Of a DNA stretch of 64,000 nt, positions 4,469 to 38,481 are shown piece by piece. The DNA comes from Watersipora subatra (lineage: Eukaryota > Bryozoa > Gymnolaemata > Cheilostomatida > Watersiporidae). Location: positions 22,338 to 86,337 of the forward strand of contig NW_027045314.1 in the NCBI RefSeq assembly GCF_963576615.1. The letters run 5' to 3'. The notes beneath the pieces are model-generated. The model was not told the DNA's origin. It did not search any database and saw nothing but the letters and a program-made list of their open reading frames with translations. The translations under genes were made by a program, and so were the position numbers. How positions within the stretch are numbered: the stretch's first letter is position 1; each line of letters opens with the position of its first letter.

Positions 4469-4653
4469 AGTAGCCAGGTACTTTTGTAATCTATTTTGCC
4501 GGAGACAAAAGCAACATTAGATTTTTGAAAATATCTGTTTTAATAGATAAAATATATGTGAATTCCATGTCCAAAATTCAAAAAGTTGTAATTACTATCA
4601 CACAAGTTATGGTGAAATAAGTGAATTTTGGCCAACGGTGCCCCGGTTACCCC

Positions 4654-12100: not shown

Positions 12101-12312
12101 TTATCAGTCCTCTTATCCAACATTTAAGGAATTTCTGAATGAATGACAAGGTATTATCAGTCCTCCTATCCAACATTTAAGTAATTTCTGAATGAATGAC
12201 AAGGTATTATCAGTCCTCTTATCCAACATTTAAGGAATTTCTGCATGAATTGCAAGGTACTATCAGTCCTCCTATCCAACATTTAAGGAACTACTGAATG
12301 AATGACAAGGTA
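6164..12312. repeat. 53-bp satellite array, segment 3 (~116 units)
   Basis: Continuous 53-bp units. 6164 to about 7800 repeats the variant order seen after copy 3 (14504 to about 16140, offset 8340) with only scattered single-base differences. About 9660-11500 is matched by about 38590-40530 beyond the large transposon. One unit near 11276 has lost a T (52 bp). Several units contain in-frame stops on both strands and no gene is present. Confidence 0.97.
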
Positions 12313-17500: not shown

Positions 17501-18217
17501 GGAACTTCTGAATGAATGACAAGGTATTATCAGTCCTCCTATCCAACATTTAAGGAATTTCTGAATGAATGACAAGGTATTATCAGTCCTCCTATCCAAC
17601 ATTTAAGGAATTACTGAATGAATGACAAGGTATGATCAGTCCTCCTATCCAACATTTAAGGAATTTCTGAATGAAAGACAAGGTATTATCAGTCTTCCTA
17701 TTCAACATTTAAGGAATTTCTGAATGAATTGCAAGGTATTATCAGTCCTCCTATCCAACATTTAAGGAATTTCTGAATGAATGACAAGGTATTATCAGTC
17801 CTCTTATCCAGCATTTAAGGAATTTCTGAATGAATGACAAGGTATTATCAGTCCTCCTATCCAACATTTAAGGAATTTCTGAGTGAATGACAAGGTATTA
17901 TCAGTCCTCCTATCCAACATTTAAGGAATTTCTGAATGAATGACAAGGTATTATCAGTCTTCCTATCCAACATTTAAGGAATTTCTGAGTGAATGACAAG
18001 GTATTATCAGTCCTCCTATCCAACATTTAAGGAATTTCTGAATGAATGACAATGTATTATCAGTCCTCCTATCCAACATTTAAGGAATTTCTGAATGAAT
18101 GACAAGGTATTATCAGTCCTCCTATCCAACATTTAAGGAATTTCTGAATGAATGACAAGGTATTATCAGTCTTCCTATCCAACATTTAAGGAATTTCTGA
18201 GTGAATGACAAGGTATT
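14504..18217. repeat. 53-bp satellite array, segment 4 (~70 units)
   Basis: Same satellite. It breaks off within a unit at 18217, after AGGTATT: the next bases should be ATCAGTCC but are CAGTATATCC, the start of the 20-kb element. 14504-16140 is the near-copy of 6164-7800. Confidence 0.97.
18211..18217. other. Left target-site duplication AGGTATT
   Basis: These are the last seven satellite bases before the 20-kb element. The same seven bases restart the satellite at 38482-38488. The overlap is defined by the satellite itself: the base expected after the left copy is A and C is found; the base expected before the right copy is A and G is found. Confidence 0.85.
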
Positions 18218-18399
18218 CAGTATATCCCTCACCTGTACGACTATATTAGTCGATAGAGTTGTGGGCGCGGGTCGGCGTATGTGGTCGTGGTGAAAGGCTA
18301 TGCGTATACGACTGATATCGTCGACAATACAACCCGCTTATAATATTGCAGTACATTCTTCACCTGCACGACTATATTAGTCGATATAGTTGTGGGCGT
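18218..18399. repeat. Duplicated transposon terminus (2 x ~51 bp)
   Basis: 18218-18268 and 18349-18399 are direct repeats 131 bp apart. Both start CAGTA and share CACGACTATATTAGTCGATA (first copy with TACGAC) followed by GTTGTGGGCG. Each contains the short palindrome CGACTATATTAGTCG. The element end is thus repeated once inside itself, as expected for a transposase-binding site. Confidence 0.85.
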
Positions 18400-18672
18400 G
18401 TCCATCCAAGCTGACCCGTAGATTTTTTTGTTAGGTGCTCTGTTGTATTCGGACACCACGCGTTTTCCGGAGAAATAATTTATTATTCTTTCGTTGGACA
18501 ATTCTTCAGCGCTAATAACTTGAACATAACGCTACGCTAGATAACTAGACTACTAAGCACCATAGATTTAGGCTTAACGATACGCTAAAAGAACTTGTGC
18601 AGTTTGGTCGTGTCATGAGAAACAGAATGAGAAAATGTCCGAACTGTGCTGTACCATTTGTTACAGTTATAG
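18218..18672. repeat. Left terminal inverted repeat, diverged
   Basis: The outer 200 bp are rich in CGAC/GTCG motifs, about nine occurrences in a locally less AT-rich stretch. The inner part (about 18418-18672) is the inverted counterpart of about 38040-38290, sharing TTTTTTTGTTAG, TGTTGTATTCGGACA, ACAATTCTTCAGC, CTAATAACTTGAACA and GAGAAACAGAATGAGAAAA. That inner part contains a decayed copy of KDZ exon 1: the ATG is lost, a stop precedes the conserved codons, and Lys-Glu-Leu-Val and Arg-Asn-Arg-Met-Arg-Lys are still readable. It may carry the promoter for the chromodomain gene. Confidence 0.8.
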
Positions 18673-19234
18673 TATTTTTATTGTGTTAACTTTTATTGTA
18701 TTGACAGTGTTGTCCGAAGATTTCTCCATAAAGTGAGCCTCAAATAACGAAGTAGTTGTAATTTTTTGTTTGTGAATTTCCAACATAAAAACGAACATTT
18801 TTGTGTAAGTTTTGTTAAGTACCGCGCGAGCCAGAAAACAGAAAATTATTTGTGTTGGTGCCATCATAACCAATTAAGATTCAGCTTTTCGTGATGACAC
18901 AAATAATTAAAATAGCATCATTGACTCTGATGATGGTGAACGTAATAGTTTTGGGAGAGTAAGGAACATTTTAGAGGATCGTTTTAGCTTCGAAGCGATC
19001 GTGGCTTCACATAGCTTTAGCAATGCACAAAGCGTGGATACATTGAATTTTTTTTCATAGTACTATTGGTTAACATGTTAGCAACATAAAATATATAACG
19101 AAGTGTTCTAGATAAGTTTGAAGTTGAAGAAAAAATTGTATACATATCATGAAGAAAAATCGGCAATTTTCGGTAAAAGGCTGGCAGTAGGCCGATAGCT
19201 AAATTTGTACATGGGCAGGAGTTAAAGGGTAGCT
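18673..19234. other. No gene recognised
   Basis: AT-rich, non-repetitive DNA inside the transposon between the left terminal repeat and the KDZ-derived fragment. Open frames here are short and show no family motif or splice context. It may be leader or intron of the chromodomain gene. Confidence 0.5.
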
Positions 19235-19502
19235 CACAGCAAACACAATTTGGAGAGTTCAAGGCCGTGAAAACTATCTAGCAACCTCATTAGTCTTATA
19301 CACAGCCAAGTTTTCAAACACTGTTGATTAAAAAACATCCAAACACAATTCAGTTGTAATGCATTTCTGAAATTACACACCTTATAAAGACCCAGCATAG
19401 GTACCCATAAGTATAGCAAAATAAAGGGAATTGATTGGGTGCAGACTTAATTAACCCTATCCATAAACTGATTTAGCGAGGTGGCTGTACCATTGAATAA
19501 CG
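19235..19502 (+). pseudogene. Inverted fragment of KDZ exon 8 and its intron
   Basis: The stretch is the reverse complement, diverged, of about 33996-34252. It starts with the last bases of KDZ exon 8 (ACAGCAAACACAATT) and runs into that exon's downstream intron; landmarks are CTATCTAGCAACCTCATTAG and GGTGGCTGTACCATTGAATA. The donor site is lost here (TTTGGAGAG instead of TTCGGTGAG). Together with the exon-1 relic in the left terminal repeat, it suggests the left arm descends partly from an inverted, collapsed copy of the right arm. Alternatively it is simply a copy of an intronic repeat (see 33838-34252). Confidence 0.7.
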
Positions 19503-19835
19503 ATTCAGGACATGTGTTTAATATCTTTGCTGAAGGTCATGTGTAGTTGAAAATTCATAATCACTACCTACTACGGCTGTACTGGTAATCTAAAATTCTG
19601 AACTTAGCCATACCTTAACTTTACAATGAGAGTGATCCAGGTGACTCAAGTGTTGATTTCTTTGCTTAGACGGTACGTCAATTGGTACATATTTAACATT
19701 ACAACTTTTCGACTTCATCTTGAGATTGGAGACCAGGCTCCTAGGCTGGGCATGTACCATATGAAGCGGCGCTCAGTTTATTAAAAAAAAGTTATTATCA
19801 TAAATCACCAGTGAACCACGCACAAAAATCTAATA
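19503..19835. other. No gene recognised
   Basis: Unique AT-rich sequence between the inverted KDZ fragment and the MITE. No coding, repeat or hairpin signal stood out. Confidence 0.45.
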
Positions 19836-20446
19836 CAGTAAAACTCGGCTAACTCGACATTCACGGAACCGAAAGAAAGTGTTAGAGTTATTAGAGCGTT
19901 CAAGTTATGAGAACACTCACAAGTGCATGTATTGTTGTATTTATCAGTACATATACAAACTATATATAAATCAAAAGCATTTATGGCTTGTTTCAAGTTA
20001 AGGGACCTCTCATGTAATGTTTTAACAATTTTTATCAGAAAGTATAAATATTTTCCTCTTATTACTTGAGATTCGTTTGTTTGTTTTTGGTGATGTGACG
20101 CTTCTCCTTGCTTGCGGAGGGCTATCCCCAAGCGGATGTTTGGTAAAATTTAATTTTTTGCTAACCTTTAAAAAAGTCGTTAACGAAAATATTTGGCAGA
20201 TAGTGGTAATAAGGACGCCTAAGAACTACTAAAAGTTGTTGTTTATCTTTATGGCTGGGAATAAAGTGATATTCTAAAGCGATAACAATCGTCTCGGTAG
20301 CCGTTGGGCAAAAAAACTTCGAATTAACGAAGTTAAGGTCGAGTTATCTAAAGCATTTTATCATTGCGTGGGAACGGACCAAACAAATCCATTCGAGTTA
20401 ACCATGTGTTCGAGCTATCCGAGGGCGAGTTATCCGAGTTTCACTG
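19836..20446. mobile_element. pogo/Tigger-like MITE (611 bp)
   Basis: The left end is CAGTAAAACTCGGCTAACTC and the right end reads, in complement, CAGTGAAACTCGGATAACTC, so the inverted repeats are about 21 bp with two mismatches. TA lies on both sides (19834-19835, 20447-20448). CAGT starts and TA duplications are typical of pogo/Tigger elements. No transposase is encoded. It is a different family from the GGGGTAACC element in the satellite. It lies upstream of the first certain exon of the chromodomain gene. Confidence 0.85.
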
Positions 20447-20655
20447 TATATGGCTTGAAGCAATAAAGTCTCTACAATATGTCTTTTCATTTTATTGTTT
20501 GTTTTATGAACATATCTAACAGCTCATTTTATATGCTGGAAGCGGTCAGACTGTTGGGGCGTCTCCTTGTTATTACTTATATTACTGGTATCACGCTACC
20601 ACCACCTCATATTTTATTGTCTGATGTTCTTTTGTCTGTTTTAGCTTGCAGCATT

Positions 20656-23600
20656 ATGGAAAGAAGTTGTAGCATTTGCGGTAGCACAGGAAATGTATCT
20701 AAAAATAAATGTAATGCATGTGGTAAGTTTGTCTATTTGTTTTAAAACAGTGAGCTCGCTACCCTTTTAATTCTGCAATATTTATAATAATTTGTTATGA
20801 TTCACAGGCAAAGCACCCAGTCACATCAAAATAAAAGTAAGCTGTCCTTAAATTTTCCTTTTTGCATTTATTTTTAGTTGTCAAGATGAAGTGCCAGTGT
20901 GGGGCCATTAATGCCATCAATGCCACAAAGTGTAGTGCATGTCGTAAGTCTAAAACAATCATCATTTAAAAGCTTCTGTGTTAATACTAATAGTCGTGAT
21001 TGCTTTGCATGGTCTTTTAGCATAGAACTCTTTTCTTGTTTTGCCTAAATCTCACTGTTCTCAATAACAGCTTTAGATCATCAGAACTCCACCCCATGTG
21101 GAAATGCGATGTTGGTTTAGCATGCTTTGCAGTGCCAGGTTATCCATCAATGTCAAAATGTCAAAGTTTTATTATGTTTGCGATAGTTTTATCTGTCCCC
21201 ATTTATTGTTTTCACAGCTATCATCTTCCGTGATTTGAAGGCACAGACAAGGACGTCTACACTTAAGAAAAGGCGGGAGGAGGGCTGGGCTGGGAAGAAG
21301 ACCACAAAATACTATGTGGATGCACTGGAGCGTGCTGTGAGTGAAGTAAAATATATTTTGCTTTACGTCAAGTTATAAGACTGACATGCCAAATTGTGTA
21401 AATAGAAAGCTTTAAATACGCTCAGGCTCAACTTTAAAACAACTTACTTTTGCGGCTGCAATTCAGGTTTTGTTTACATTAAAAATGTCCGAAAGTATGC
21501 AGATATCAAAGTATAGTAGATTCAGATACAAATGTGGTTAATGTGAAAAATCACTTGTAATATTGGTTTTGAAGCCTTGTGATGGTGGTGACTACAACGC
21601 TATTGATTGGTCCCCTAAAGCTTAACATGCCAGTAATAGTTGCACAAGCCCAACTGAGCATAGGACAGCTTTCCTTAGTAGATGAAATGAATAAGACAAC
21701 AACCCATGCAAAAGAGTTATTTTAGGAATACCTAGCATCCAAATAACTGAAAAAATAGTGCAAATTCTCCAAGCTCAACAAATCTGAACCAGCTCACGTC
21801 TAGTGCAATGGTATATTATCAGCTAGCAGAAGATTTGCTTTTCATGTTGTTGTTGTAATTCATGGTATGAGCGAATGTATCATACACTCTTATAATATTG
21901 TTTATGTTCATTTTTACAGGCTGCCCACGCCCACGGTGCAGGTTTATCTGTTTTATGCCTGGTATTCAAACCTTCAGGCAAAGGTACCTTGTCTACTATT
22001 ATCGAAGAAGGATGCCACCAGACTGAAATTGTGTCAGTCATCAAAGAAGCGTTCAATGACATGACAAGATGTAGTAAGTTCCCTTGGTCTTTTCAATGTA
22101 CAGCATAACTTAATTGCCTGTTTTACATTACATCCTACTCCCCTATGTGATTGTTTTGTTGCAGAAGACTATGTGCAAAGGACCTATAAACCGTATAACC
22201 CCACATCTGCTTCCACATCAGCTACTACATCAGCTTCCACATTTGCTACTTCTACATCTGCTCCCATATTAACGTCTACATCTGCTCCTACATTACCTTC
22301 TACATCTGTTCCCATATTACCTGCTACATCTGCTCCCACATTACCTTCCACATCTGCTCCCACATTAACTTATACATCTGTTCCCACATTACCTCCTACA
22401 TCTGCTCCCACATTACCTCCTACGTCTGTTCCCACATTAACTTCTATATCTGCTCCCATATCATCTGCTCCTACATTACCTTCCACATCTGCTCCCACAT
22501 TAACTTCTACATCTGCTCCCATATCACCTGCTCCCACATTACCTTCCACATCTGCTCCCACATTAACTTCTACATCTGTTCCCACATTACCTCCTACATC
22601 TGCTCCCACATTAACTTCTACATCTGTTCCCACATTACCTCCTACATCTGTTCCCACATTAACTTCTACATCTGCTCCCATATCATCTGCTCCTACATTA
22701 CCTTCTACCTCTACTCCCAGATCAGCTACTACTACTACTTCCTCAACCACACCAACACCTACAAAGGCTGTAAGTATAGTATTCCTAATATTTCGTCCCA
22801 AAAGAAACCAAAATTTTAAATAATACGAGATCTTTAGAGAAACAATGCATATGAATTGCTTCCCATTGTTTGGTCATCTTTCTTCATACAAATTATGACA
22901 TATAAGATAGACAAACAGTTCAGAAAAACTAATACAGACCCAGCAATGAAATGTTCAATATCGTTTGTTGTAGAAAAGGTGTGCTGACAAAGCATGGCAC
23001 ACACAGACACACAAAGTAAGTAAAGCCATAGCTCATTTCTCACTGTCTAATTTTGTTGAACCTCAGTCAAGCAATTTCATTGCTGATATGTTTGTCTACG
23101 CCATGAGATATTTACTTTGCAGTTGACCTTTACTCAAATTTAAAGTACCCATAATTTCTGAATGCCATTGACCTCAGTACTGTTATTTTCCAGTGTAAGC
23201 AGAGAAAAAGGCCGAATAAGCAGCGCTCTAGTAAGTAGAAAATGCTGTTTCATTTTTCATTGTCGTTGTGTTGAATCTCTTATCAATTGTACAGTAATGC
23301 GCTATGACCATGATGAAATTGACTATTTTGCTATTTTATTTTCTCTTAGAGAGGATGGCTGCTATGCAGGTAAAACTTTTCTTCTGTGTGGTGCATAGGC
23401 AGCAAAAACTTTTGTTATTCTCTTCTTTCCTTCCCTCACCACTCTTCTTGCGAGGAGAGGTGGTAGGGGAAGGAAAGAAGAGAATAAAAAGAGTTTTTGC
23501 TGCCCATGGGTGGTGTCTTTTTTGCCTATAGTGGAATTCACAAAACAACCCTGCAATACTATCAATTATAACAACCTGGTGTCGTGATTTTGTTACCATT

Positions 23601-25258
23601 TTGTTTAACATGTCATAATTTGACATGTTTGTATTTTAATTGGCAGCCAAATAACCACAACACAGCTTGCGTTTGCCTCACTCACTAACAGCTTTGTCAT
23701 AATCACGACATGCCAACAGCCCACAGGGTGGCAGTAAATGATCAAATAACTTGCTTTCTTCAGCTAACCATGGTTGATTTCAGGTCTGATTCAGGATGGG
23801 CTTTTCGCTTGTACAAATTACTTGTTGCGCTAACATGCTGTGATATGCACTGGTTGCTAGCAGCTCAATCATTGCGTCTTTTTTCACCAAAGATATGGTT
23901 TTTCTTTGTTGTATAGGAAATACTACTCCAGCAGAATATATTAACCCAAACAATTCTGACTCAGATGCAGAAGAGATATTGAGTGAAAAGTTGGTAAGTT
24001 GATGAACAGTCAAGGGCACTTTTCCAGTGTTTTAGAGTACACATTGAAGTATACCAAGGTCCAAATCATGGTAATTTTTCGTTTTCTCATGCCAATAAAC
24101 ATCTATAATCCTGGGGATCTATCCTTTCGCAAAAAATTGCCTAAAAGGACTAAATTGGTTAATTAACTGGGTATGATCATTACAAATACCTGAAATGGTG
24201 TACTCGGTAATCTATGTGTATTATTTTTAAATGACGTTCAATATCTTATGGCATTGTTTTATTAGATAGGTGCAAATTTGATCAATTTTTTGTATCAGCA
24301 ATGGGTAATGTTACTGTCGAGAAAAGACAACTTGACACATATTTGGAATGCAAATTGATATTTTGTGTTCAAAAAGTTTCAACCTCTGGTCATGCATGGA
24401 CTACATTCACTACCACATGTTACAATATGTTTGACATAGATTTTCTGCCCCTCCTCTCCTCTCTCTTTCACTTTTCGATTCTCATAATTTGTTTCTGAAT
24501 CTTTTTCAGGACAAGAATGGTAGAACACTGTACCTGGTCAAGTGGAAACATTATTCATCACAGTAAGTCACGTCAGCCGAATGTCTATTAGGGGCGAATA
24601 TTCATGGGCTGAGTCGTGACTAAAATCCATGCTTTTAGTCATGACTCAGCTTCAGCCAGTCAATACGATGAAAATAACAATTTAGCAGAGTATACACAAA
24701 TCAGGATTATCAACAATAGAGCAATTGATGCTGTATTGAGTTGTCATTTATTTATTTAGTCATTGCTGCAACAAAGCACAATGACCTTATGTTAAGAGCG
24801 GAAACATGTAGCATCTTAAAACCCACCAGCTGATCAGACTAATAATCATCTCAATTTTATTTTGTTGCAGAAGTAACACCTGGGAGCCCTCTAGAAATCT
24901 CAAACAAACTTTGGCACTGCTAAACTATAAGGTGAGTTTAGCCAGTTACACAAGCAAAAAGTGCTTTGCTGAAAGTCTTATTGTTTACCTAATCATTGAT
25001 AAAGATCGCCACAATCATGGAGTCAAATCTGCACCCCATTCATGGCTATATGTCGCCCGATTTTTGTCACGTAATGCATTCATATCATACAAGTTAGTTG
25101 CAAGGACATCAGCCGAAAAGAGTATCGCCTCCCCAGCTGAATCATCATATAGCCATGTGTTTTTACTGGGTAACTAATGCACATCTTGTTTTGTCACTTC
25201 AGACAGCATTTCTTTACCGTTTTTCCTTCTTTTGCAGGAACATGTCCAGTCAACATGA
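20656..25258 (+). CDS. Zinc-motif, Ser/Thr/Pro-repeat, chromodomain protein (transposon passenger)
   Basis: Exons: 20656-20722, 20878-20943, 21218-21336, 21920-22073, 22165-22769, 23194-23230, 23917-23993, 24510-24562, 24871-24931, 25238-25258. All have GT-AG borders and compatible phases, giving 419 residues with no internal stop. Residues 1-45 carry two cysteine clusters (CSICG...KCNAC and KCQCG...KCSAC), probably zinc-binding. About 45-135 is an unknown basic-to-mixed domain (ALERAAHAHGAGLSVLCLVF). About 146-330 is a Ser/Thr/Pro octad repeat. About 366-413 is a chromodomain (EEILSEKL, YLVKWKHYSS, NTWEPSRNL): the cage Trp and Tyr of VKWKHY are kept, while the first aromatic of the HP1 cage seems absent. 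Optional exons: 20808-20836 and an 18-base one at 23352-23369. The start is the ATG before the first CxxC; 5' exons could be missing. A role in targeting chromatin is inferred. Confidence 0.8.
22185..22755 (+). repeat. Coding minisatellite, Ser/Thr/Pro octads
   Basis: Within exon 5 of the chromodomain gene a unit of about 24 bp recurs about twenty times, alternating TCTGCTCCCACATTA with CTTCTACA or CTCCTACA. It encodes octads such as TSAPTLTS and TSVPTLPP. Some octads are shortened (SAPISSAP). The region is probably a disordered, possibly O-glycosylated or phosphorylated linker. The opposite strand is open only as a by-product of the repeat. Confidence 0.9.
23398..23504. mobile_element. 107-bp palindrome in an intron (MITE-like)
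   Basis: GGCAGCAAAAACTTTTGTTA at 23398 pairs with its counterpart ending GTTTTTGCTGCC at 23504. The arms are about 50 bases, with CTCTTCTTTCCTTCCC facing GGGAAGGAAAGAAGAG, and few mismatches. The loop is about 10 bases. It lies in an intron of the chromodomain gene. A tiny fold-back transposon is likely; no clear target duplication was seen. Confidence 0.75.
24608..24650. repeat. Intronic hairpin
   Basis: GCTGAGTCGTGACTAAAA (24608-24625) pairs with TTTTAGTCATGACTCAGC (24633-24650) with one mismatch and a 7-base loop, in the intron that splits the chromodomain. Function unknown. Confidence 0.75.
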
Positions 25259-25555
25259 CCAGCAACTCCTATCTGCCACCAGCAAGCATCCACATACACA
25301 GACATTCTTTACTTGTATAATGTAAAAATATGTAATATAATAGTAATATAATATATCAATTAATAATCAACAGAAAATAACACTTTGTTGCAATAATCAA
25401 TTCATCAGATCAAACTACCCGGCTTGCATTATTCTATTTGAGGATTGATAACAATAGGAAGAAGAAATAGAATAGAACGGAATCTTGCTTACTCTTGAGT
25501 GGAGTTCCCTACACAGCTTTGTTGTGATCCTTTGTGTAATCTTATAATTATGTTC

Positions 25556-25561
25556 AATAAA
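25556..25561 (+). promoter_or_regulatory. Candidate polyadenylation signal AATAAA
   Basis: First strong AATAAA about 300 bases after the stop of the chromodomain gene and ahead of the 359-bp array. It would close the plus-strand transcript before the convergent gene. Weak evidence on its own in AT-rich DNA. Confidence 0.4.
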
Positions 25562-25849
25562 AGTGATCACAGGGACCCCCTACACATAACCACAACATTC
25601 TAACACAATTCTAACCTGTTGTCCAATCAGGTTGATTTATGCAACTTGCTCACCTGCTTAGTCCATACAAACCATCATAAAGTTTTCGAAGCCTTAGGAT
25701 GTGCACTGATGTGGTCCAGAACAGTTTTGTAAATCACTGCTTTTTTGGTAAGGCAGTGATGGCTGAAAGTGTCATGGCTGTCTCACTGGTGCGGACACCT
25801 GCAGGTATGAATAGACAACTCCAGAGTAGATGGATAATATTTATCTATT

Positions 25850-27928
25850 AATAACGAATTTCTACAATTCTTGTCCCACATGTCTAAAAACTTGGTATTT
25901 ATACTGCTGAGCCATGTTAATACTCAATATTATTTCAGTGTTGCTACATTTGCGTTAGTTCCCATGTAAACAGTGAAATATATTCAGGATTTATCTCCCC
26001 CTTGTGTTGCCTGTAATAGTTGAATATTTTAATAATTCAACTCAGTAGATACAGTAGGCTTATTGAAATGCATTTTAGTCATTTTTACTTGTATCTTGAG
26101 AAATTGAAATGGTTAAAACTAGGTGCCCGACTTGCTTCTCCATACAAATCACAATACTTGTGGAAACCTATTACTTTATTTACTCATGTAGCCCTGAATA
26201 GTTTTGTGAGAATGAACTTTTACAATTTTTAGGCCACGTGTATAAAAACTTGGTATTTATACCGGTGAGCCTTGTTAATACTGAATATTACTTCAATATT
26301 GCTACATTTGCCTTAGTTCTTATGTAAACAGTGAAAGATATTCAGGATTTATCTCCCCCTTGTGTTGCCTGTCATAGTTGAATATTTTAATAATTCAACT
26401 CAATAGATACAGTAGGCTTATGGAAATGCATTTTAGTCATTTTGACTTGTACCCTGAAAAAATTGAAATGGTTAAAATTAGGTGCCCGACTTGCTTCTCC
26501 ATGCAAATCACAATACATGTGGAAACCTATTATTTTATTTACTCATGTCGCTCTGAATAGTTTTGTGAGAATGAATTTTTACAATTTTTAGGCCACATGT
26601 ATAAAAACTTGGCATTTATACTGCTGAACTATGTTAATACTGAATATTACTTCAATATTGCTACATTTGCCTTAGTTCTTATGTAAACAGTGAAAGATAT
26701 TCAGGATTTATCTCCCCCTTGTGTTGCCTGTCATAGTTGAATATTTTAATAATTCAACTCAATAGATACAGTAGGCTTATGGAAATGCATTTTAGTCATT
26801 TTGACTTGTATCCTGAAAAAATTGAAATGGTTAAAATTAGGTGCCCGACTTGCTTCTCCATGCGAATCACAATACTTGTGGAAACCTATTATTTTATTTA
26901 CTCATGTCGCTCTGAATAGTTTTGTGAGAATGAATTTTTACAATTTTTAGGCCACATGTATAAAAACTTGGCATTTATGCTGCTGAACTATGTTAATACT
27001 GAATATTACTTCAATATTGCTACATTTGCCTTAGTTCTTATGTAAACAGTGAAAGATATTCAGGATTTATCTCCCCCTTGTGTTGCCTGTCATAGTTGAA
27101 TATTTTAATAATTCATCTCAATAGATACAGTAGGCTTATGGAAATGCATTTTAGTCATTTTGACTTGTATCCTGAAAAAATTGAAATGGTTAAAATTAGG
27201 TGCCCGACTTGCTTCTCCATGCAAATCACAATACTTGTGGAAACCTATTATTTTATTTACTCATGTCGCTCTGAATAGTTTTGTGAGAATGAATTTTTAC
27301 AATTTTTAGGCCACATGTATAAAAACTTGGCATTTATACTGCTGAACTATGTTAATACTGAATATTACTTCAATATTGCTACATTTGCCTTAGTTCTTAT
27401 GTAAACAGTGAAAGATATTCAGGATTTATCTCCCCCTTGTGTTGCCTGTCATAGTTGAATATTTTAATAATTCAACTCAATAGATACAGTAGGCTTATGG
27501 AAATGCATTTTAGTCATTTTGACTTGTATCCTGAAAAAATTGAAATGGTTAAAATTAGGTGCCCGACTTGCTTCTCCATGCAAATCACAATACTTGTGGA
27601 AACCTATTATTTTATTTACTCATGTCGCCCTGAATAGTTTTGTGAGAATGAATTTTTACAATTTTTAGGCCACATGTATAAAAACTTGGCATTTATACTG
27701 CTGAACTATGTTAATACTGAATATTACTTCAATATTGCTACATTTGCCTTAGTTCTTATGTAAACAGTAAAAGATATTCAGGATTTATCTCCACCTTGTG
27801 TTGCCTGTCATAATTGAATATTTTATATAATGGATACAGGAGGCTCATTGCAATGGATTTTTTGTCATTCTCACCTGTATCCAAAGGTATCAAAATAGTT
27901 AAAACTAGGTGCCCGACAGGCTTGTTAT
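25850..27928. repeat. 359-bp tandem array (~5.8 units)
   Basis: Units recur at 359-bp steps; the ATG in each inner unit is at 26378, 26737, 27096 and 27455, and the first step is 358. The three or four central units are nearly identical, while the first and last are clearly diverged, the usual sign of homogenisation by unequal exchange. Each unit has a 60-codon open frame from an ATG. It ends early at the first and last units and has no recognisable domain, so I treat it as non-coding. The array separates the ends of the two convergent genes. Confidence 0.92.
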
Positions 27929-28540
27929 GACATTCTCACCTATTGTCGCATGGCCTAGACTCACCTGAGAGGGGTTGTCCATTTTATTCTGGCTGATAAC
28001 ATATGTGACCCAGGCAGTCAGAATGTACAATTGTGCTAAAACCACATTTTTGAGTTATTTAAAGATTTAAAATCAGCAAATTCTGAGGATTTTAATGCAT
28101 TTTATATTTTTTTAAATTGGATTATTTATACCCAGGTTAGGCAAGATTTAGTAGAGAAGGTCTCATGATAAACTAAAACTGTTGTTTTGAGTTTAATCAG
28201 AATAAAGTTGGTGATTCATGAACTGTAAATCATGGTATTTTCTTACAAATCAAAATGCCATAGCAACCAACCACTAAATCTCAACCTATATTGATGAAAC
28301 CCGGCATTCTTCACAATAAAACCTTGAAACAGATGATCGTTGCATTTTTATTCCAATTCGATTGACAGTTGACATCCCAAAGGTCATGGTAAGGTTAACA
28401 ATATATGTGGCTAAAAGCTCACCGTCCTGGATGTATTCATTAAAAGGGTATGCTTCAAACTGGGCAATTCTCATCAAGCTATATTGCTATGACTGCATTT
28501 AATGACAGTCCAACAACTTAACAAAGAGCTGGATGTGTAT
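27929..28540. other. No confident feature
   Basis: AT-rich DNA after the 359-bp array. The minus strand has a 63-codon frame at 28286-28477, ending FYCEECRVSSI. A segment there (ACCTTACCATGACCTT) resembles one at about 28565 (ACCTTACCACGACCTT), so this may be a diverged duplicate of the relic next door. I do not call a gene. Confidence 0.4.
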
Positions 28541-29132
28541 TCAGAATTGTCCACCTATACAGAAGGTCGTGGTAAGGTCAACGATGCGGAAAATATGTGA
28601 TGCGAAAATATCAACCCAACTCATCAAGTGACTATTCAATCTAGAGCTCTTTTTATGTAGTTTAACACTCACACAGTGTAGCACAAGTACGCTGCAGAGA
28701 TTTATTGTAGCACATTGGAGAGGTTTGTTTGTTATGCTAGCGGCAATTTGTCTCAACGCAACCATATCCAATGTTTCCTTCGGCAATCGTTGATATACAG
28801 TTCTAATGAGGCTTAATTGTTCAGATGACATAAAACTAGCGCATAATTCCCTACACTTGCACCCACTTATTAGTTTGATGTCAACAGCTAGAATGGGAAT
28901 GTTATCAGCAGTGATAGGCTGATCGTTATTCTCTGTAATTTGATTTAATTAATTCGCATTATCGTTAGCAGCCACATACTGCGTAAGCAGCTGTATTTCT
29001 AAGGTTGACCTATTATCATAATTCTCATCATCGCTTTCACTATGATCTGAGGCAGCTGACTCAGATTCTAAGTAGAAATACTCATCTAGCATCAACAAGC
29101 CGTAATTTGGCGATTGTTTATTTCGTTCTAGC
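28541..29132 (-). pseudogene. Unidentified coding relic (transposase-like N-terminus?)
   Basis: Read on the minus strand from 29132, after an acceptor-like CTTCAG, an open frame begins LERNKQSPNYGLLMLDEYFY, followed by an acidic Ser/Asp/Glu stretch. It stops at TAA (28949-28951) and continues in the same frame with GCKCRELCASFMSSEQ, then LIRTVYQRLPKETLDMVALR, to a stop at 28541. The Cys cluster followed by an LDMV-type helix recalls N-terminal regions of unnamed multi-copy proteins I associate with cnidarian genomes; I cannot name the family. The in-frame stop and lack of downstream exons suggest decay, unless a very short intron removes the TAA. Confidence 0.5.
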
Positions 29133-29266
29133 CTGAAGCATTAAAAGAGGAAATGGCCACATACATGCGCGCACCCGCAGTTAAAGCCTACAGTTGTGAT
29201 CTTGGGTTATGAAAAATTCCATAGCAACCACCAATATGGGTATAGTCAGAGCCGTATACGTAGTTG

Positions 29267-29614
29267 CACAGAGTCCCGTGACCAAAAGCCGGAAACAAAA
29301 ACGCTTGATTCCAAACAAACCCGATCGACATGCTGATCTCTAATGGAATATTCTTACCTCGCTCTCAACATCTCACTCTTTTGCATTTACTTATTACAAA
29401 AAATAATTTGTGGTTTCTTGTAGAAAATTTTGTCCTTTTTCAAGTGGTGTATAATACAACTATCAATTTCAAAGCGACTGCTAATGGGAGTAGTTTTTGT
29501 TGATTAATGTTGCGGCTTCTACATTATAACTTATATAAAACTAGTAGGCGTGGCCTGTTTGTTTGGAATCGAGCTCCCTCCCGTATACGCTTCTGTTGGA
29601 CGCCGGACTCTGTG
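29267..29614. mobile_element. MITE-like inverted repeat (348 bp)
   Basis: CACAGAGTCC at 29267 faces GGACTCTGTG at 29605-29614. Further in, GATTCCAAACAAAC (29307-29320) faces its exact complement (29557-29570). The intervening arm sequence is diverged, giving an inverted repeat of roughly 55 bases around an AT-rich core without coding. CGTATACG occurs in or beside both arms. Confidence 0.65.
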
Positions 29615-29896
29615 AAACCAGACGACACTGGGTATAGCTAAATGGCAATTCTGGATTTATGATTGGTCAGACACAAAAATAAACAAGACCATGTAAAAGA
29701 GCAGGGTTGAATGCACTGTAAACCACTGTTTACTAAAATAGTGACGGTGAGTCATATAATAGCGTGAAGCACGCTTAGCGCGCTATTGTGAACAATGGAA
29801 TTACCGCACGATTGTACATTCTGACGGCCGGGGTCACATGTACTAAAGGTTATACAAAAGACATTTCGTTTATTATTGAGAAATAAATTAATATAC

Positions 29897-29902
29897 TTTA
29901 TT
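29897..29902 (-). promoter_or_regulatory. Candidate polyadenylation signal of KDZ gene
   Basis: AATAAA on the minus strand about 75 bases after the stop codon of the transposase gene. Good position, but AT-rich context. Confidence 0.5.
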
Positions 29903-29977
29903 ACAATATTGTTTTGTGAAGATCAGCATAAAAAGTAATACAGAAAGTAGATCAGCATACATGTAAATCATGGCATT

Positions 29978-32900
29978 TCAATCCCCATAAAAACTTCCAT
30001 CAGAGTCATCGTCGTCCTCGTCATCATCAGATACATCTAAGTCCTGGCATAGTGATACAGCTAGCTGCATATCCTAACAATAGAATAATTCAATGAATGA
30101 AATCATAAGTAAATCATAGGTAAATCATCGGTCATGGCATAAATAATACTGGATGTTTTTTAAATCTGTCATTTGCTGCTATATGAAATGTTGTTGCTGA
30201 CTGGCAAACAGTGATTGGCAAAAGCTTGATCACTATTGCGATACTGTTCTTCCCCAATTTAATAGTACGTACCTCAACTTCCTCAGAGAAGAAAACAGAG
30301 GATTTTTCGACCATGTTTTGAAGAAATATGGCCTCTTCTCCATTGCATGTATCAAGTTGCTGGACTGAAAATGAAGAGGACCAAATTAGCCAGAAATCTG
30401 AACTCAGAATTCAACTAAATACTTAAAAAAGTATCTTATGTTTCAACGTGATGTTGTAGACAATTTGTTATAGAATGGACCTGCTAAAAACAACTGAGAC
30501 ATCACTATTGATACTATATCATGTATATTAAGCATCTACAAACACGGATGAGAAACTCACCTATTGTTCTTATCATTGTATGCCTTTCCTGTTCTAGAAT
30601 AGGGATTTCTTCTACAGTTCTCTGCCACAATTGATAGCTCTCCACTGCCTTAAGAACATCCTGTGAGAAGGTTATATCTGAAACATCAAAAAGTGACATC
30701 AGCATGGCTTGCTAATATAGGATTTTCATGTGTAAAAGTTGAACAAGGAATGTCTAGATTTGTTGCGGGGAATTGATATTTCATGAAAAAACTTACCTCC
30801 ACGGACAACTGCCCATGGGAATAACCCTGACTTCAAACAGCTTTGCAGCTTTTCTGTTGTCGTTTCTGGATGGAGGTTGCTGTATTCTAAAGCCTTTTTC
30901 TTATAGCTGCAATGGTTTGCACGCAGACGCGATCTCAACTTCTGTGCAATTTTTCCACTCTCTGTTAATATAAACAGAAATTACATTCTCGATAACACAA
31001 TACATAGAAAAATTTTAACTTTGATTTTTTTTCAGAGAGATCACCTGACAAACCTACCTGATTTCTTAAGAACATCTTCTTGCCGCAGGATATTGACTCT
31101 GAGGTCTTCTAAGACAGCTTGTATGTTATCTGGTTCTGAAAGATAATACAATATATCAATCACAACATTCTAATCATACATCTATATGTATACTTCTCAA
31201 AGTATGTATGTGTGTATTCCGGCTATAGCTACTATTAAAATTGCTATTATTAAAATAGCTACAGCTGGACAATGCTGACGCAACATCATGGCGTATGTCA
31301 TTAGAAGCCTAACGCTTATTAGCAAGCTTAATGGAATTTTCCAGTGGCAGTGTGCCAGGCTAATAGCAAAGTGGCAGGTAGCCTGTCTTGACAAAATGTT
31401 GTTTTTTGTAGGGTTGTCCCCCGTCGAGCGGGCGAGCAACAAAACAGCTTGTCAAAAGACGTACTGCACCTGATGCATCAGCTGCACTTATAGGGAGTTG
31501 TTCTTGTTCTCTTCCGTCTATGCGGCTTGGTGGCAATGCTATGTCGGTCGCTCCATTGGTAATCATAACCGATTTCGCGCAAAAAATTATGTAGAAAGAA
31601 ATAAGATTACAACGTTTAACCAAAGACTGTTGGTTGTTTACAACTCTGTTGTAAACTTTAGTAGAATTTAAGAATAAAACAAATTGAAAATAAAATCCAT
31701 AAGAACAAATAAAACTGACTGATACAAAAATAGAAATTAAACTGACCGAGCGCACAAATAATGACATGTTTAGTCGCTGTTGTTGCCTAAGTTCTCAAGT
31801 TCTACTAAAGTTTATCGCAGAGACTGGTCGCTAGTTAAGAGTTATAATCTTATTTCTTTCTACATAATTTTTTGCGCGAAATCAGTTATGATTACCAATG
31901 GAGCGACCGACATAACATTGCCACCAAGCCGCATAGACGGAAGAGAACAACTCCCTATAAGTGCAGCTGATGCATCAGGTGCAGTACGTCTTGTGATAAG
32001 CTGTTGGGTTGCTCGCCCGCTCGACGGGGGACAACTACGCAAAAACAACAGTTTGTCAAGACAGGCTAAGTGGCAGGCAACTCTCATCACTCCTCATTGT
32101 TTATAAGCTGATTTTTAATACCCGGGCAACGCCGGAGGCACAGCTAGTTGTTACTATAAACTACAATGAGCATCTTTCACCATGAAACGTGAAACGTCAT
32201 CTTTGCATCAGGGCCTCATATTATTCATACTCATATTATTATGAGCATTATCATGAAATACAAATCATCCACTGCTAATTGACACAGAAAAACAATCATT
32301 TACTCTCTAAGCATGCGGAAATAGTATAAGTAAAAAACTCACTTGGCGGCGGCTTGGCAACAAGGATTGCTCTGGCCTCAAGTTCAGCTAAAGTTAATCC
32401 AATTGAGTGGCAGTGTGCATCCACTTGTGCCTCTAGAATGGGTAGTTGTTTCTTGGCCTAAAACGAGACGTACTCGGCACTATAATTCTTCACTTGTTGT
32501 ATAACTGCAATAAAGCCAATTATTTATTGAGAAAGCTTGGCTTTTTGTCAATAGTTAAAACAAATTGAACCTGGGTAACAGTACGATTTCATCCTATGAT
32601 TGCTGTTTCTACATACTTTGGAAAGAGATGTAAATATCTGTTTGGGCAGATTGACAAACTTTCGGAGATTCCAAAAAGCTGCCCCTTGCTCCAAGCGTCT
32701 CCGTCTACCTTGAAACAAGAGAATAAATTGGGAAGTCATACCATTGACAAGTTGGCACTTAGGCACAATAGGCGCCAAAGTCACCAATGTGTATTGTCAT
32801 TAACCAAGTTATAAAACATATCACAGTGGTACAATACATTTAACATTGTCAAATGCAAAGCTAATAACTTACCCGATAGGTTTTAACTATCGGGTAAGTT

Positions 32901-35900
32901 ATTAGCTTACCCGACAGTTAAGGCCTAAAAAATACCTCCCTTGACAATATATAAAATAGTGCTCACTGAATAAACTCACCATCTGATGTCATGTGTCTTG
33001 TTACTTTTCCCAATCGGGACATGTAGCTATTAACAAGTTCTGTAGTCTCCCCAGTACTTAATCCTGTTCCTACAGTGACTCTTCCACTCCATTTCATCTG
33101 AAAAAAGCAAAAAAAGAAAATTTTGGTAATATGAAACTTAAAGTAAAGTAGATGAACGATTACTATATTCATTAGACAGATTACTGACAACTCCAACGGT
33201 GAGCTTTATTCATTAGACAGATTACTGACAACTCCAACGGTGAGCTTTATTCATTAGACAGATACCTGACAACTCCAACGGTGAGCTTTGGCGTGCATGA
33301 TACTAAGGAACGGGCGTTGCTGCTGTGGTAGCCTCTCCAGCCGCTCTAGCCAAGGCCAGTATCTGCACATTGTATCAAGGGCAATGAATTTTGCACCTTG
33401 AAATTCTCTCTAAAAACATAATACATTAGCTTTATGGAGGGAGCATCGTAGCAAAAACTATTTAAGATTTCTGCAATAGAAAGACCATTGTAATAAGTAG
33501 ACAGACATTCCTGTTGCCAGAAAAGAAGTTGTAGGTTTTAGGGAGGTTTGTGAATTTTTTCTGTGACAATAAAAAATGTTGACTGGACCGATGATGATGT
33601 ATTATGGACAACCACCAATACCTGCATAGTGTATGGATACGCGTATATCTCCCCCCTAGTCATATCCAATCCCTTCAACAGAAAACAGTGGCGGCATGTG
33701 GCTAGCAAACAACCAGTCACATCCTTCTTGGAGAATGCTTTTCCTTTGGCAGACGCAGCCTTCCAAACCGTATCACCACATCTATTGGAGACCTGTAATA
33801 ACGATCTAGGTAATTGAGGTTTATAAAGACAACCACAATTGGCCAGGTTCATTGGCTATAGACCAGGACTTCCCAGCAGTTATCTTTTCAAGATATTCCA
33901 TATAGTTTTTAAAATATTCTAAATTTGCCCATCAAACTTACTAAGATTTTTTTAACTTGGGTGGATGGCAGCACTATCAATTCAGTGCACTGATTGGTTA
34001 TTCAATGGTACAGCCACCTTGCTGTATGGGGTTTATTAGGCCTGCAACCAAACAATTCACTTGATTCTGCTATACCTATGGGTACCTATTCTGGGTCTTC
34101 ATAAGGTATGAGATTTCAGAAATGCATTACAACTGAATTGTGATTGGATGGTTTTTAATCAACAGGGTTTAAAAACTTGGCTGTGATTAAGACTAATGAG
34201 GTTGCTAGATAGTTTTGACGACCTTAAACTCACCGAATTGTGTTTGCTGTTCTCTATACGCGTGACCTGCTCTTCAACGTCACTAGTGGAAACAAAAAAC
34301 TCACTTGGCTCCTCAATTCCTGATGAAACTCTAAGATCAATGACAAGAATCAAATTAAAAATGAATAAACAAAGGCTTCCTCTTTGAATTACTACACAAT
34401 AGCCCCACTTGAGAAATCTAGTAATAGAATGCGAATAATATAGTTGCACATCAAAACTTTAAACACACAACATCATATTAAAAGCGTTGGGTGCGTCCAA
34501 ACATTTTATATGCTGAATGGAGCTAGTGCTTAGTAATTTGAAGATTGGATGATAGGCAGAACCCACTGTCCCAAAATGAAATTAACCCATATTAAATTGT
34601 TACTATCTGTAAACACAGAGAATGCAAAAATCTGATATATGGTTTTTTCATTAGATATCATACCTGCCGGCAGCTCTATAGTGAAATAGTTTTGCATTCC
34701 CGTCAATGTGAATCGCATGGGGCTCGTCCAAACATGCAGGGCAACTGAACAAACTACCACCGGTAGCTTTAGATAAATAGTCTGTCTCTTGAATCCTCCA
34801 TTCCGACATTGAATAGTTGAAGACATCTTGTTTGAGCATGAAACTCTAAATAACAACACAACACCTTTCAAATCTAATGGAAAAGTCAAAGAAATGTCAC
34901 AAAAGACTCTTTGTCTAGTTTTTCTGCTAATTGGATCCTTGCTTGATGACAAATGCGGCATTGCGCAAGTTGGCTGACTATATAGCTCGACACTCTACAC
35001 GTTATATAATGATGATATCACTAACATCCACTGTGAACATAACGATCAGATGTAATACCTCGCCATCCAAGGATGAGATAAAGCTGACGGAATCCAACAG
35101 ACTTTTAAGGCTTAGAGATGGTGAGAAGTGCTGCAGGATTGAAGCACTCAGAAGAAAACTGAAGTTGAAGTAGGCTCTTCCCTCAACGTCAACAGGCCAA
35201 AGTCCATACTGGACCAGCTGTTGAGGCTCCCGCCAAGAAGACCACGAACAGGCCTCACAGACCATAACGTCTATTTTTTGGCTGACCATCCCTGAAAGAT
35301 TAGTTCAGTTTTTACAAACACAAAAAACATTAGCCTATTCTAGTACAGCTAACTAGGGTAGCCTATGTTAGTACAAGTAACCCAGGGTAGCCTATACTAG
35401 TACATCTAACCTAGAGTAGCCTATTCTAGTACAGGTAACCTAGGGTAGCCTATACTAATATAGGTGACCTAGTGTAGCCCATGTTAGTACAGGTAACCTA
35501 GAGTAGCCTATGTTAGTACAAGTAACACAGGGTAGCCTATACTAGTACATCTAACCTAGAGTAGCCTATTCTAGTACAGGTAACCTAGGGTAGCCTATAC
35601 TAATATAGGTGACCTAGTGTAGCCCATGTTAGTACAGGTAACCTAGAGTAGCCTATGTTAGTACAAGTAACACAGGGTAGCCTATACTGGTACATATAAC
35701 CTAGAGTAGCCTATGTTAGTACAAGTAACCCAGGGTAGCCTATACTAGTACATCTAACCTAGAGTAGCCTATTCTAGTACAGGTAACCTAGGGTAGCCTA
35801 TACTAATATAGGTGACCTAGTGTAGCCCATGCTAGTACAGGTAACCTAGAGTAGCGTATGTTAGTACAAGTAACACAGGGTAGCCTATACTGGTACATAT

Positions 35901-38136
35901 AACCTAGAGTAGCCTATGTTAGTACAGGTAACCTAGGGTAGCCTATAATACTAATACAGCTAACCTAGTGCTCGTAAAGCTAACCTTTGCTAGTATAACT
36001 AATCAATTCAGTTGAAAACATACCTTCAAAAGAAATAATTCTAACCATCTCATATCTACCAGGTGGACAGAACACGGTTCCATTGCAGTCTGGGCAAACC
36101 TGATGAATGGCAGACTGACGATCATCTGTAAAATTATATGAAAAATGAAAAACATAATCGCCTTTTATTATCTTCTGAATTTGTGATATATATATATTCG
36201 ACATATTCTTGATCATCTCAGATAACGGAATAACACGGGGATGCTCACCAACTCTCATTTTTCGCACTCTCATTCCATCTGCAAACAATCTCCCAATCTC
36301 CTCTCGGTGAAGATCCCAATTCCCTTTCTGGGTCTGGATGTAAGTCTTCTTACGGTGTCTCAATGACTTTAGTCTGGTCAAAATAGTTTCATCTACAATA
36401 ACACATTAGATAGTACAACCAGTGTGTTAGTTAAACATGAATATTAATAAATTATAAGATGTATGAGGAAACAAATATTCATTTTACAACCTCTCAGACA
36501 TGTAAAAGGACCAATCAGATTGCAGCAGACTCATTATAGCGGTAGATTCAAGCTTGTTCAGTCAAATGACCTTAGGTCTAAGATTTTTGGCAATACAAAC
36601 AGCCAGCCATGCACAAATGCCACAAAACCTAGCCAGCTTCATTGGCTATAGACCAAAACTGTCCATACCAAGTCTTTTCTAGAGACCACATGTAGGTTTC
36701 AAGATATTCTATTTGAGCAGTAGGCAGCACTTGATTTGATTGACCTTGACCAGTCCTATCATCGTGTGAGTGCAATGATTCATTGGTACAGCCACCTTGT
36801 ATAAGTTTTGCTAAATGGGTATAAGGGTATGGTTAATTAAGCCTGCAACCAATCGATTCACTTGATTCTGATAATCCCCGTGGTAGGTGTGCTGGGTCTT
36901 TATTACCTATGCATCCTGTGTTTGTTATGACATCACCTCCACTGCCATCACCAACTTCCATATCACAAGCTGACGTATCTATAATATGAAAATCAATATT
37001 GGTAATTAAAAAATACAAACAAGAATAGAAAGCACACAACAGCACATTGATTTAATAATAGTATTTCCTTTGCTGCGGCTCTCACCTGTAAAAGTGGTTG
37101 CTGCTATTCTACTGTTGTCAATTGCATTCTTCAATTTATGGAGACTCTCCTGGGCTTTTTTTTTGCTCTTACTCTGCCTCTTCTCTTGAAACATACAATG
37201 CATGTTAACAACTAGGCAAGAATCATGATACCCATAATTACGCTACACATGGCATATTAATAAAACTGCATCACTGTCAAACTTTTTGACAGTGTGGTAG
37301 TTCATGATAAATGCTCAAAAAATATAAAGCCAGCACTGGGCCTTGCTGAACCAACGTGTAGTGTCTCATTACTTACTTTCCAATTGATCCTAAACGCCAG
37401 TTCAAGGCATGTAGGGTATATTAACCTGTATCACCGAGTATTAACTGAGCTCTGAGTAAAGTGAATCAAAGTATAGTTGTTGGCATAAAATGAGGGTTAT
37501 AAAGTGGTAAAAACTATATATACGAGTATTTATGTATCATCAGTCCGATTGTCTAAGGCCAAAGGTGATATAAATGATATATATGAGTATTTGTGCATAT
37601 CAGTGAGTATTATTAGTCTGATTGTCTGTGGGCAGAAAATATATTTTAACTTGGTTTTTAATGCGATTGTAAAAGCTAAATCGCCACACATTTGTTCGGT
37701 GTTGGTGGCTTAATATCTTACTTCTAGTATCATGTGTCACAAGTGCAAATTTAATGTATTCATTTAATTGTATGTTATAGAGACTCGCTTCAATTTTTCT
37801 CAGAAATAGGGTATCCAGACTGCCTCGCCTGTCACTCAGAAAAATAATTTCATTTTCGTCGCGGCATTTTGTTATACTAGCTCTTTTACGGAGCCAGAAA
37901 ATCATTCACCAAAGGTTACCAAATACAAGCCCATCCATTATCATAAGTCAAGATTGAATAAACCAACTTTAAATACATAAATAATTATATATGATATTGA
38001 ATATATTAATTTTAGTAAAGAATAACAAAAAAATAATGGTTTATAGTCAAATATAACAAATGGTAAAGTACAGACCTTTTCTCATTCTGTTTCTCCTGAC
38101 ACGACCAGACTCCACAAGTTCTTTGAGCGTTTCCAT
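29978..38136 (-). CDS. KDZ-class (Kyakuja-Dileera-Zisupton) transposase, 18 exons, intact
   Basis: Exons in order: 38136-38076, 37184-37086, 36978-36907, 36392-36249, 36125-36024, 35291-35059, 34845-34664, 34330-34234, 33792-33622, 33409-33266, 33097-32980, 32708-32617, 32457-32343, 31135-31058, 30961-30797, 30677-30561, 30364-30273, 30073-29978. All borders are GT-AG and all phases fit: 2178 nt, 725 residues, no break. Residues 1-125 are basic. Paired CxxC motifs (C136/C139, C171/C174) precede LVQYGLWP. Then come CPACLDEPHAIHIDGN (D285), CLLATCRHC (358-366), FIALDTMCRYWPWL (D399), MHAKAHRWSCQ and GTGLSTGETTE (E452). These are KDZ signatures and the Asp/Asp/Glu are my candidate catalytic triad. 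A coiled C-terminus ends in an acidic tail (DVSDDDEDDDDSDG). It should catalyse excision and integration in the nucleus. The ATG lies inside the right terminal repeat. Confidence 0.88.
31369..32079. mobile_element. 0.7-kb fold-back element in KDZ intron
   Basis: Arms at 31369 to about 31670 and about 31787-32079 are inverted copies, with long exact stretches such as TTGTCCCCCGTCGAGCGGGC and GCGCAAAAAATTATGTAGAA and some indels. They flank about 115 bp of AT-rich sequence. The open frames here (108 and 135 codons) are reflections of each other caused by the palindrome, not genes. It sits between exons 13 and 14 of the transposase gene. Confidence 0.88.
32121..32148 (+). mobile_element. Helitron-like 3' end
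   Basis: CCGG-GCAACG-CCGG hairpin (from 32122) followed 10 bases later by CTAGT (32144-32148). A short GC hairpin just before CTRRT is the classic Helitron 3' terminus. The fold-back immediately to the left may be the body of a non-autonomous Helitron; I could not fix a 5' end starting TC. Confidence 0.4.
32859..32907. repeat. Perfect 21-bp hairpin in KDZ intron
   Basis: AGCTAATAACTTACCCGATA(G) at 32859-32879 is followed after 7 bases by its exact complement (32887-32907). TTACCCGACAG then follows as a partial third copy. It lies in the intron between exons 11 and 12. Confidence 0.85.
33168..33290. repeat. 41-bp triplication covering a splice donor
   Basis: Three head-to-tail 41-bp copies (33168, 33209, 33250). 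Each contains the end of KDZ exon 10 (codons for AHRWSCQ) and its donor. Only the copy at the exon reads CAG|GTATCT; the two intronic copies read CAGTAATCT and cannot act as that donor, so the triplication is harmless to the reading frame. Confidence 0.9.
33838..34252 (+). repeat. Intronic repeat shared by two KDZ introns and the left arm
   Basis: Segments here (TTGGCTATAGACCA, GGTACAGCCACCTT, GCCTGCAACCAA, TTCACTTGATTCTG) recur in the same order at about 36630-36910, upstream of exon 4. Part of it recurs inverted at 19235-19502. It could be a small transposon family without visible ends, or an internal duplication within the gene. Confidence 0.65.
35332..35985. repeat. 29-bp intronic minisatellite (~22 units)
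   Basis: Units of the form AGTACAGGTAACCTAGGGTA + GCCTATACT. Five-unit blocks of 145 bp repeat: AGTACAAGTAAC starts at 35370, 35515, 35660, 35718 (a two-unit step) and 35863. It lies in the intron between exons 5 and 6 of the KDZ gene. Confidence 0.92.
36126..36248 (-). other. 123-base intron that is open in frame
   Basis: It has donor GTGAGC and acceptor TTTTACAG, phase 1. Its length is a multiple of three and it has no stop, so retaining it would add 41 residues and give a 766-residue protein. It is T-rich at its 3' end and interrupts the sequence before the first CxxC motif, so I treat it as an intron. Confidence 0.65.
37272..37294. repeat. Short perfect hairpin
   Basis: CACTGTCAAA, 3 bases, TTTGACAGTG. 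Lies in the first intron of the KDZ gene. No function assigned. Confidence 0.6.
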
Positions 38137-38481
38137 GAGTCAAAATCTATAAGACTTAGTAGTTTACTAGTCTTGCGAAGCGTTGTGTTCAAGTTATTAG
38201 TGCTGAAGAATTGTCAAGCAAAATAATAAATATTTATCCCTTCGCAAGCGGTGCTGTCCGAATACAACAGCGCATCTAACAAAAAAATTCTACTGCTCGG
38301 CATAGATATAGAGATAAAACGCAACTTTCCATTGGGTGCAGAATCGTTAGGGACAATTCGACCGTATGCGTCGTAGAACGCCCATCGACGAGATCAGGCG
38401 ACCATGAAGCACGACCGATTTCGTGGATAAGCTACACGCGTCTATCGACCGTTTTGAGCGTATGAACTGCGGTATGGACTG
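38040..38481. repeat. Right terminal inverted repeat with KDZ exon 1
   Basis: Inverted partner of 18218-18672. The outer 150 bp contain six CGAC/GTCG motifs, including CGGTCGATAG and GGTCGTG in complement. The inner part covers the AT-rich leader and exon 1 (38076-38136) of the transposase, so the gene's promoter and start codon lie within the repeat. Confidence 0.8.

Follow-up and report, generated by a model that had tools for sequence, protein, structure and literature searches.

The stretch of DNA analysed here, in the following called the window, comprises 64,000 nucleotides of the bryozoan Watersipora subatra (contig NW_027045314.1, assembly locus C112:22338-86337). It contains a complete copy of a DNA transposon of the KDZ class at 18218-38481 (20,264 bp), which is bordered on both sides by the sequence AGGTATT (18211-18217 and 38482-38488) and carries two convergent genes, a transposase gene on the minus strand (28949-37203) and an accessory gene for a chromodomain protein on the plus strand (20656-25258). 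While the transposon had already been proposed in a preliminary description of this DNA, the chromodomain gene was missed there. The KDZ class includes some of the largest DNA transposons of eukaryotes. Altogether, we read the element as a recently mobile giant cut-and-paste KDZ transposon with a convergent chromodomain gene, at a probability of about 0.88.

Insertion site, ends and copies

A 53-bp satellite array directly abuts the element on both sides (blocks 1-18217 and 38482-62260), as had been described before. The 20,264-bp insert between the two arrays starts with CAGTATATCC and finishes with GGTATGGACTG. After removal of the element together with one AGGTATT in silico, the joined flanks were identical to the satellite array at 17946-18058 in 113 of 113 positions, with zero mismatches; matches of at least 110 bases to this joined sequence occur 684 times inside the window. 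Since the satellite is perfectly restored with a single AGGTATT, the insertion must have duplicated exactly seven satellite bases, and the 7-bp flank repeat noticed earlier is the target-site duplication.

The search for further copies was carried out on the 783.7-Mb assembly (239 contigs) with the first 501 and the last 451 bases of the element as queries. For the left end, 35 matches span at least 499 of the 501 bases (best 40 of 84 candidates scored), and for the right end the last base was reached by 29 matches (best 40 of 80 candidates scored). Such matches alone do not prove a boundary, as the proposed ends were also the limits of the queries, and the proof comes from the flanks. For the pairing, left ends were joined with right ends of the same strand at distances of up to 36 kb; 35 of the 40 left and 35 of the 40 right matches were used, with partial or diverged matches excluded. 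Among the matches listed, 27 of the 35 left ends could be paired (window included), resulting in copies of 1,863 to 34,910 bp, 18 of them spanning 18-25 kb. An extra left flank (C7:21223216) and seven unpaired right ends stayed outside the counts.

Exact flanking duplications were found for 12 of the 27 pairs; they measure 7 bp in seven pairs and 8 bp in the other five, and every sequence was different. One of these cases (C9:152900) was counted after a two-base shift of the left boundary, where CAGT reads CTGT. As a control, left and right flanks from different copies were combined, and an exact 7- or 8-bp match was found in 0 of 702 combinations. The 300-bp flanks of the 26 other pairs comprised a single related flank pair between copies, on the right side of C8:48285 and C9:1761557. 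The boundaries are real because the sequences outside them differ between copies. Many copies in the genome share these ends but are flanked by differing 7-8 bp duplications, as had been anticipated. The differing flanks, the exact duplications and the perfect empty site rule out that the boundaries arose by chance or during assembly.

The terminal regions (18218-18487 and 38212-38481) share several features. In the left one, the CAGT end is followed by GTCGATAGA at bases 32-40 and three RTCGAY motifs, and a unit of roughly 50 bp recurs from 18349 as a direct repeat (by eye); in the right one, the CTG end is preceded by GTCGATAGA at 33-41 from the end and two RTCGAY motifs. The latter motif, which was picked post hoc, occurs seven times in the whole element, five of them within the outer 270 bases. 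The inverted match at the tips is limited to CAG...CTG plus GTCGATAGA, and at the very tips a long inverted repeat is absent. Further inside, a subterminal inverted repeat (left arm 18418-18663, right arm 38054-38293; 81.2% identity over a 250-bp alignment) has its start at base 201 counted from the left end and at base 189 from the right end. The earlier claim of motifs symmetric about the ends therefore holds. The proposed CAGT/ACTG ends are present in the window, and the left end reads CAGT in 26 of the 27 paired copies, but ACTG is limited to the window and its closest relative (GGACTG, also in C8:30616940), while 23 copies end in GGGCTG and two in other spellings (all by eye). The terminal motifs and inverted repeats are candidate binding sites for the transposase.

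Two side observations concern the surroundings of the copies. The same flanking sequence was found at four right ends (C8:48285, C9:1761557, C9:884554 and C8:1161337), which suggests segmental duplication close to where contigs C8 and C9 begin. The left satellite block of the window is interrupted three times (2463-4653, 5610-6163 and 12313-14503). The first and third interruptions are inserts of 2,191 bp with 99.86% identity to each other, and the second is a shortened form of 554 bp. All three have the ends GGGGTAACC...GGTTACCCC, adjoin TA at both ends and interrupt the satellite monomer at an identical position; the best Pfam result for these inserts was DDE_1 with 14.8 bits, under the cut-off of 22.

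The transposase gene and the age of the family

The transposase gene comprises 17 exons encoding 767 amino acids. Exons 1-9 lie at 37203-37086, 36978-36937, 36392-36249, 36125-35985, 35291-35059, 34845-34664, 34330-34234, 33792-33622 and 33409-33266, and exons 10-17 at 33097-32980, 32708-32617, 32457-32343, 31135-31058, 30961-30797, 30677-30561, 30364-30202 and 29132-28949. All exons join in a single frame with GT-AG introns. The unbroken joining had been recognised before, but the 18 exons and 725 residues then proposed had to be replaced. Since the automatic chain followed a different frame at exons 6, 7 and 17, these were placed manually, and the acceptors are partly hand-chosen. Exon 6 was replaced, the acceptor of exon 7 was moved to 34330 on the basis of the KDZ motif and, by eye, of a second KDZ family (L089) of the same genome, and the gene was ended at the stop of exon 17, where the automatic chain had other last exons. 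The frame of the automatic chain at 34973-34664 was rejected, since the alternative frame yields the KDZ motif. The second family exceeds the Pfam cut-off at two loci (L089, C5:50295733; L090, C5:50058911). For KDZ relatives in viral contigs, four pattern matches were obtained, of which none was confirmed.

With the revised frame, the score against the Pfam KDZ profile (PF18758) increased from 81.6 bits for a partial, differently joined piece to 100.2 bits, compared to a cut-off of 26.6, and the match covers profile positions 5-217 of 217 (residues 271-477 of the protein). This places the protein within KDZ, as had been claimed. The cysteine cluster CxC3 reached 22.3 bits at a cut-off of 26.6. 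Candidates for the catalytic residues D, D and E were noted by eye in HIDGN, ALDTMC and GETTEL. In the Protein Data Bank (PDB), no chain matched the transposase at an E-value of 0.1 or below.

For comparison, nine other copies were fetched whole from the 26 other pairs. Since they were picked for high identity and length, this sample leans towards young and unbroken copies. All nine align collinearly with the window copy; the differences lie mainly in the length of a tandem array, besides a few other insertions, among them one of 787 bp in C6:19264133. A 359-bp tandem repeat at 25856-27831 varies in copy number between transposon copies. The divergence from the window copy in aligned bases amounts to 0.14% for C8:30616940, 1.73-1.85% for five copies and 2.42-2.62% for three copies; among all ten, the nearest pair is 0.08% and the farthest 3.12% apart. 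Three shorter stretches from older copies showed 90.3-93.4% identity to the window.

In none of the ten copies did the transposase show a stop in the column-wise comparison. Frame-breaking indels occur in three (C9:2544140, C8:54221433 and C6:25673354, the last of which also lost an acceptor), the other seven frames are unbroken, and the splice sites are conserved in nine of ten. The ratio of amino-acid-changing to silent substitution rates (dN/dS) was 0.19-0.48 in seven copy pairs, while two more pairs were too similar to count. The variants counted over all copies comprise 44 silent and 58 amino-acid-changing ones, corresponding to a ratio per site (pN/pS) of 0.35 (p=4.6e-7; here and below, the p-values treat variants as independent). 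Judged by this variation, the comparison shows purifying selection on the transposase. A dead, once-mobile element, of which the window copy would be an inactive relic kept by chance, could account for the three broken transposase genes and for the broken accessory genes of older copies. However, the distances of 0.14% to the nearest copy and 0.08% between two others, the seven unbroken frames and the conserved splice sites speak against such a relic, which we consider very unlikely. The same near-identical copies and unbroken frames fit a family that is young and possibly active, as the preliminary description had supposed.

Downstream of the transposase stop, an open frame on the minus strand (28544-28948, reading GCKCRELC...) was considered as a part of the transposase and rejected, since it follows the stop codon and has matches in many other parts of the genome. 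It probably represents a nested or shared repeat, with 150 scored matches genome-wide (best 150 of 382 candidates), many of them on contig C3 at 22-30 Mb. It matched no Pfam family and showed no significant constraint across copies. Within an intron of the transposase gene, a fold-back structure at 31372-32075 with arms of up to about 300 bp resembles a miniature inverted-repeat transposable element (MITE).

The chromodomain gene

The accessory gene comprises 11 exons (20656-20722, 20878-20943, 21218-21336, 21920-22073, 22165-22769, 22974-23015, 23194-23230, 23917-23993, 24510-24562, 24871-24931 and 25238-25258), which join in one frame to a stop and encode 433 amino acids. The acceptors of exons 5, 8 and 11 were hand-chosen from candidates. 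The protein starts with two stretches of cysteine pairs, followed by a variable Ser/Thr/Pro-rich repeat and a basic stretch, and ends at its C-terminus with the chromodomain. The latter is encoded by exons 8-10 (23917-24931) and scored against Pfam Chromo (PF00385) with 50 bits as a 63-residue piece and 45.4 bits in a 427-residue model, compared to a cut-off of 25.1. In the PDB, 59 distinct sequences matched at an E-value of 0.001 or below, with Clr4 as the best (1.3e-10), followed by CDY-, HP1- and Polycomb-type chromodomains. In a comparison by eye with Clr4 (1g6z), W and the Y after it are retained in what we take to be the aromatic cage, while the first Y is replaced by S.

The gene was found in all ten copies, with an unbroken frame in eight. 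The coding repeat in exon 5 (22203-22680) changes its length in the nine other copies in multiples of three, with differences of -54, +30 and -42. Without the repeat, the gene showed a pN/pS of 0.46 (13 silent and 23 changing variants, p=0.025), and the chromodomain exons alone 0.26 (5 silent and 5 changing, p=0.038). An artefact of splice choice in non-coding DNA might be suspected from the hand-chosen acceptors of exons 5, 8 and 11, but a 45.4-bit chromodomain spread over three exons, strong GT-AG sites, and the retained frame with length changes in threes make this explanation scarcely credible.

A genome search with the chromodomain piece resulted in 82 matches, of which 29 hit the first chromodomain exon (exon 8). 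All but one of these 29 lie on the same strand and less than 8 kb inside a listed left end of the family, and the remaining one lies 18.9 kb inside. The chromodomain gene thus travels with the KDZ element. A weak match of 46% identity at C2:69645855 may be a host chromodomain.

Whether the gene serves the element is a separate matter. It could be a passenger, i.e. a captured host gene without benefit to the element, and to this we give appreciably less than even odds. The weak constraint in the N-terminal part and the decay of fragments in older copies agree with a passenger, and extra genes are frequent in giant KDZ elements according to the accessible part of PMC12477816. Against it stand the frame retained in eight of ten copies, the repeat changes in threes and the pN/pS below 1; in addition, the 69 matches of the protein searches, although not tallied singly, gave no hint that the host has its own copy of the N-terminal part. 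Comparing these points, a selected function of the accessory protein is weakly favoured over a passenger.

Placement, mechanism and significance

Zisupton is said to possess terminal inverted repeats, whereas the inverted repeats of the window family sit about 190-200 bp inside the ends. In the accessible text of PMC12730594, Zisupton of fish and Dileera of fungi make 8-bp duplications, and the fungal Kyakuja elements combine 7-bp duplications with CA...TG ends without terminal inverted repeats. The window family resembles Zisupton and Dileera in its many-exon KDZ transposase and in the 8-bp length of 5 of the 12 exact duplications. With Kyakuja it shares the KDZ transposase, the CA...TG termini, the lack of an inverted repeat at the very ends and a duplication of 7 bp in 7 of the 12 cases, but it differs by the 8-bp length of the other 5, by its size of 20 kb, by the chromodomain gene and in that no TET/JBP gene was recognised. 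For Cryptococcus KDZ2 and KDZ3, duplications of 4-8 bp are given in the portion seen of PMC12810828. Based on this comparison of duplication lengths and end features with the described groups, the family is filed as KDZ with Kyakuja-like ends and a mixed 7/8-bp duplication length.

The Zisupton-like KDZ genes of Pristionchus, as far as PMC9297572 could be consulted, comprise 18 and 31 exons and spread recently, while target duplications were not detected. The multi-exon transposase and the recent spread are common to both, but the same part of that paper reports no chromodomain gene. With the giant KDZ elements of algae, which reach 30.3 kb in Ectocarpus and of which one of 31.7 kb has moved in Chlamydomonas, the window family shares size, nested foreign repeats and extra genes; the chromodomains described there belong to Gypsy retrotransposons, not to KDZ (PMC12477816, in the part available). 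Since these algae have KDZ elements of 20-30 kb, the size of 20,264 bp, called unusually large before, is large but by itself not new. The chromodomain-bearing Gypsy elements (chromoviruses) resemble the window element in encoding a chromodomain (PMC12477816, same part), but in those RNA-copied elements the integrase carries it as a fusion, whereas here it is a separate protein of a DNA transposon. PMC12062965 and PMC9926710 mention KDZ without a chromodomain gene in their accessible portions. In the literature covered, no KDZ element with a chromodomain was recognised; the 2014 paper defining KDZ lay outside this search and could mention one. The novelty is therefore seen in the chromodomain gene tied to a KDZ element, the class and a size of 20-30 kb being known already.

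The exact ends, the duplications and the restored empty site show an insertion by a transposase that cuts its target with a stagger of 7 or 8 bp. The transposase would bind the repeated end motifs and the 250-bp subterminal inverted repeats, pair both ends and, as expected from its class, excise the 20-kb element, which would then be inserted at the staggered cut. We tentatively suppose, at clearly less than even odds, that the accessory protein reads modified chromatin and either tethers the complex at insertion or keeps the element expressible in silent chromatin. In the first case, KDZ transposase and chromodomain protein would form a two-part system that brings the excised element to marked chromatin, in analogy to chromoviral integrases, and thereby spares genes; we regard this as rather doubtful. 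Alternatively, the protein may be a host-facing anti-silencing or regulatory factor and not an insertion-site tether, which also appears unlikely. Such a role would agree with the chromodomain being in a separate gene, unfused to the transposase, and with the TET/JBP gene of fungal KDZ elements, discussed in relation to silencing in the accessible text of PMC12730594. Nothing speaks directly against it, but chromodomains of retrotransposon integrases direct insertion, according to a title cited in PMC12477816, so that the tether is suggested by analogy. The present data fit both roles alike.

Several observations weigh against the overall interpretation as a recently mobile element with a functional chromodomain gene. 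Exact duplications are lacking in 15 of the 27 pairs, of which some are diverged, share a flank by segmental duplication or may be mispaired. The 53-bp satellite was absent from the flanks of the 26 other pairs (with only about 32 bases for one right flank on C178), so that no satellite preference is seen, although the window copy lies in satellite. A search of the whole genome with the Pfam KDZ profile detected two other places and overlooked the window family, whose exons are short. Both gene models use hand-chosen acceptors and were derived from genomic DNA. In the accessory chromodomain, the first of the three presumed cage positions of HP1 type is serine, the N-terminal accessory exons showed a non-significant pN/pS of 0.55 (p=0.15), and the gene is broken in two of the ten copies (C6:25673354, with a 1-bp loss and the last acceptor lost, and C9:2544140) and in all three older copies. 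In comparisons with the latter, the dN/dS was 0.46-1.04, as expected for decay.

In the literature found, as far as accessible, little is said about complete KDZ elements outside fungi and algae. The window family is a complete one, whose ends are exact, whose duplications are a mixture of 7 and 8 bp and to which a chromodomain gene is tied, and it raises the question whether such an element uses a chromatin reader of its own for choosing or surviving chromatin. Its near-identical copies with known empty sites make the mapping of insertion sites in populations practical. If the two-part tether were true, a giant element could spread while sparing genes.

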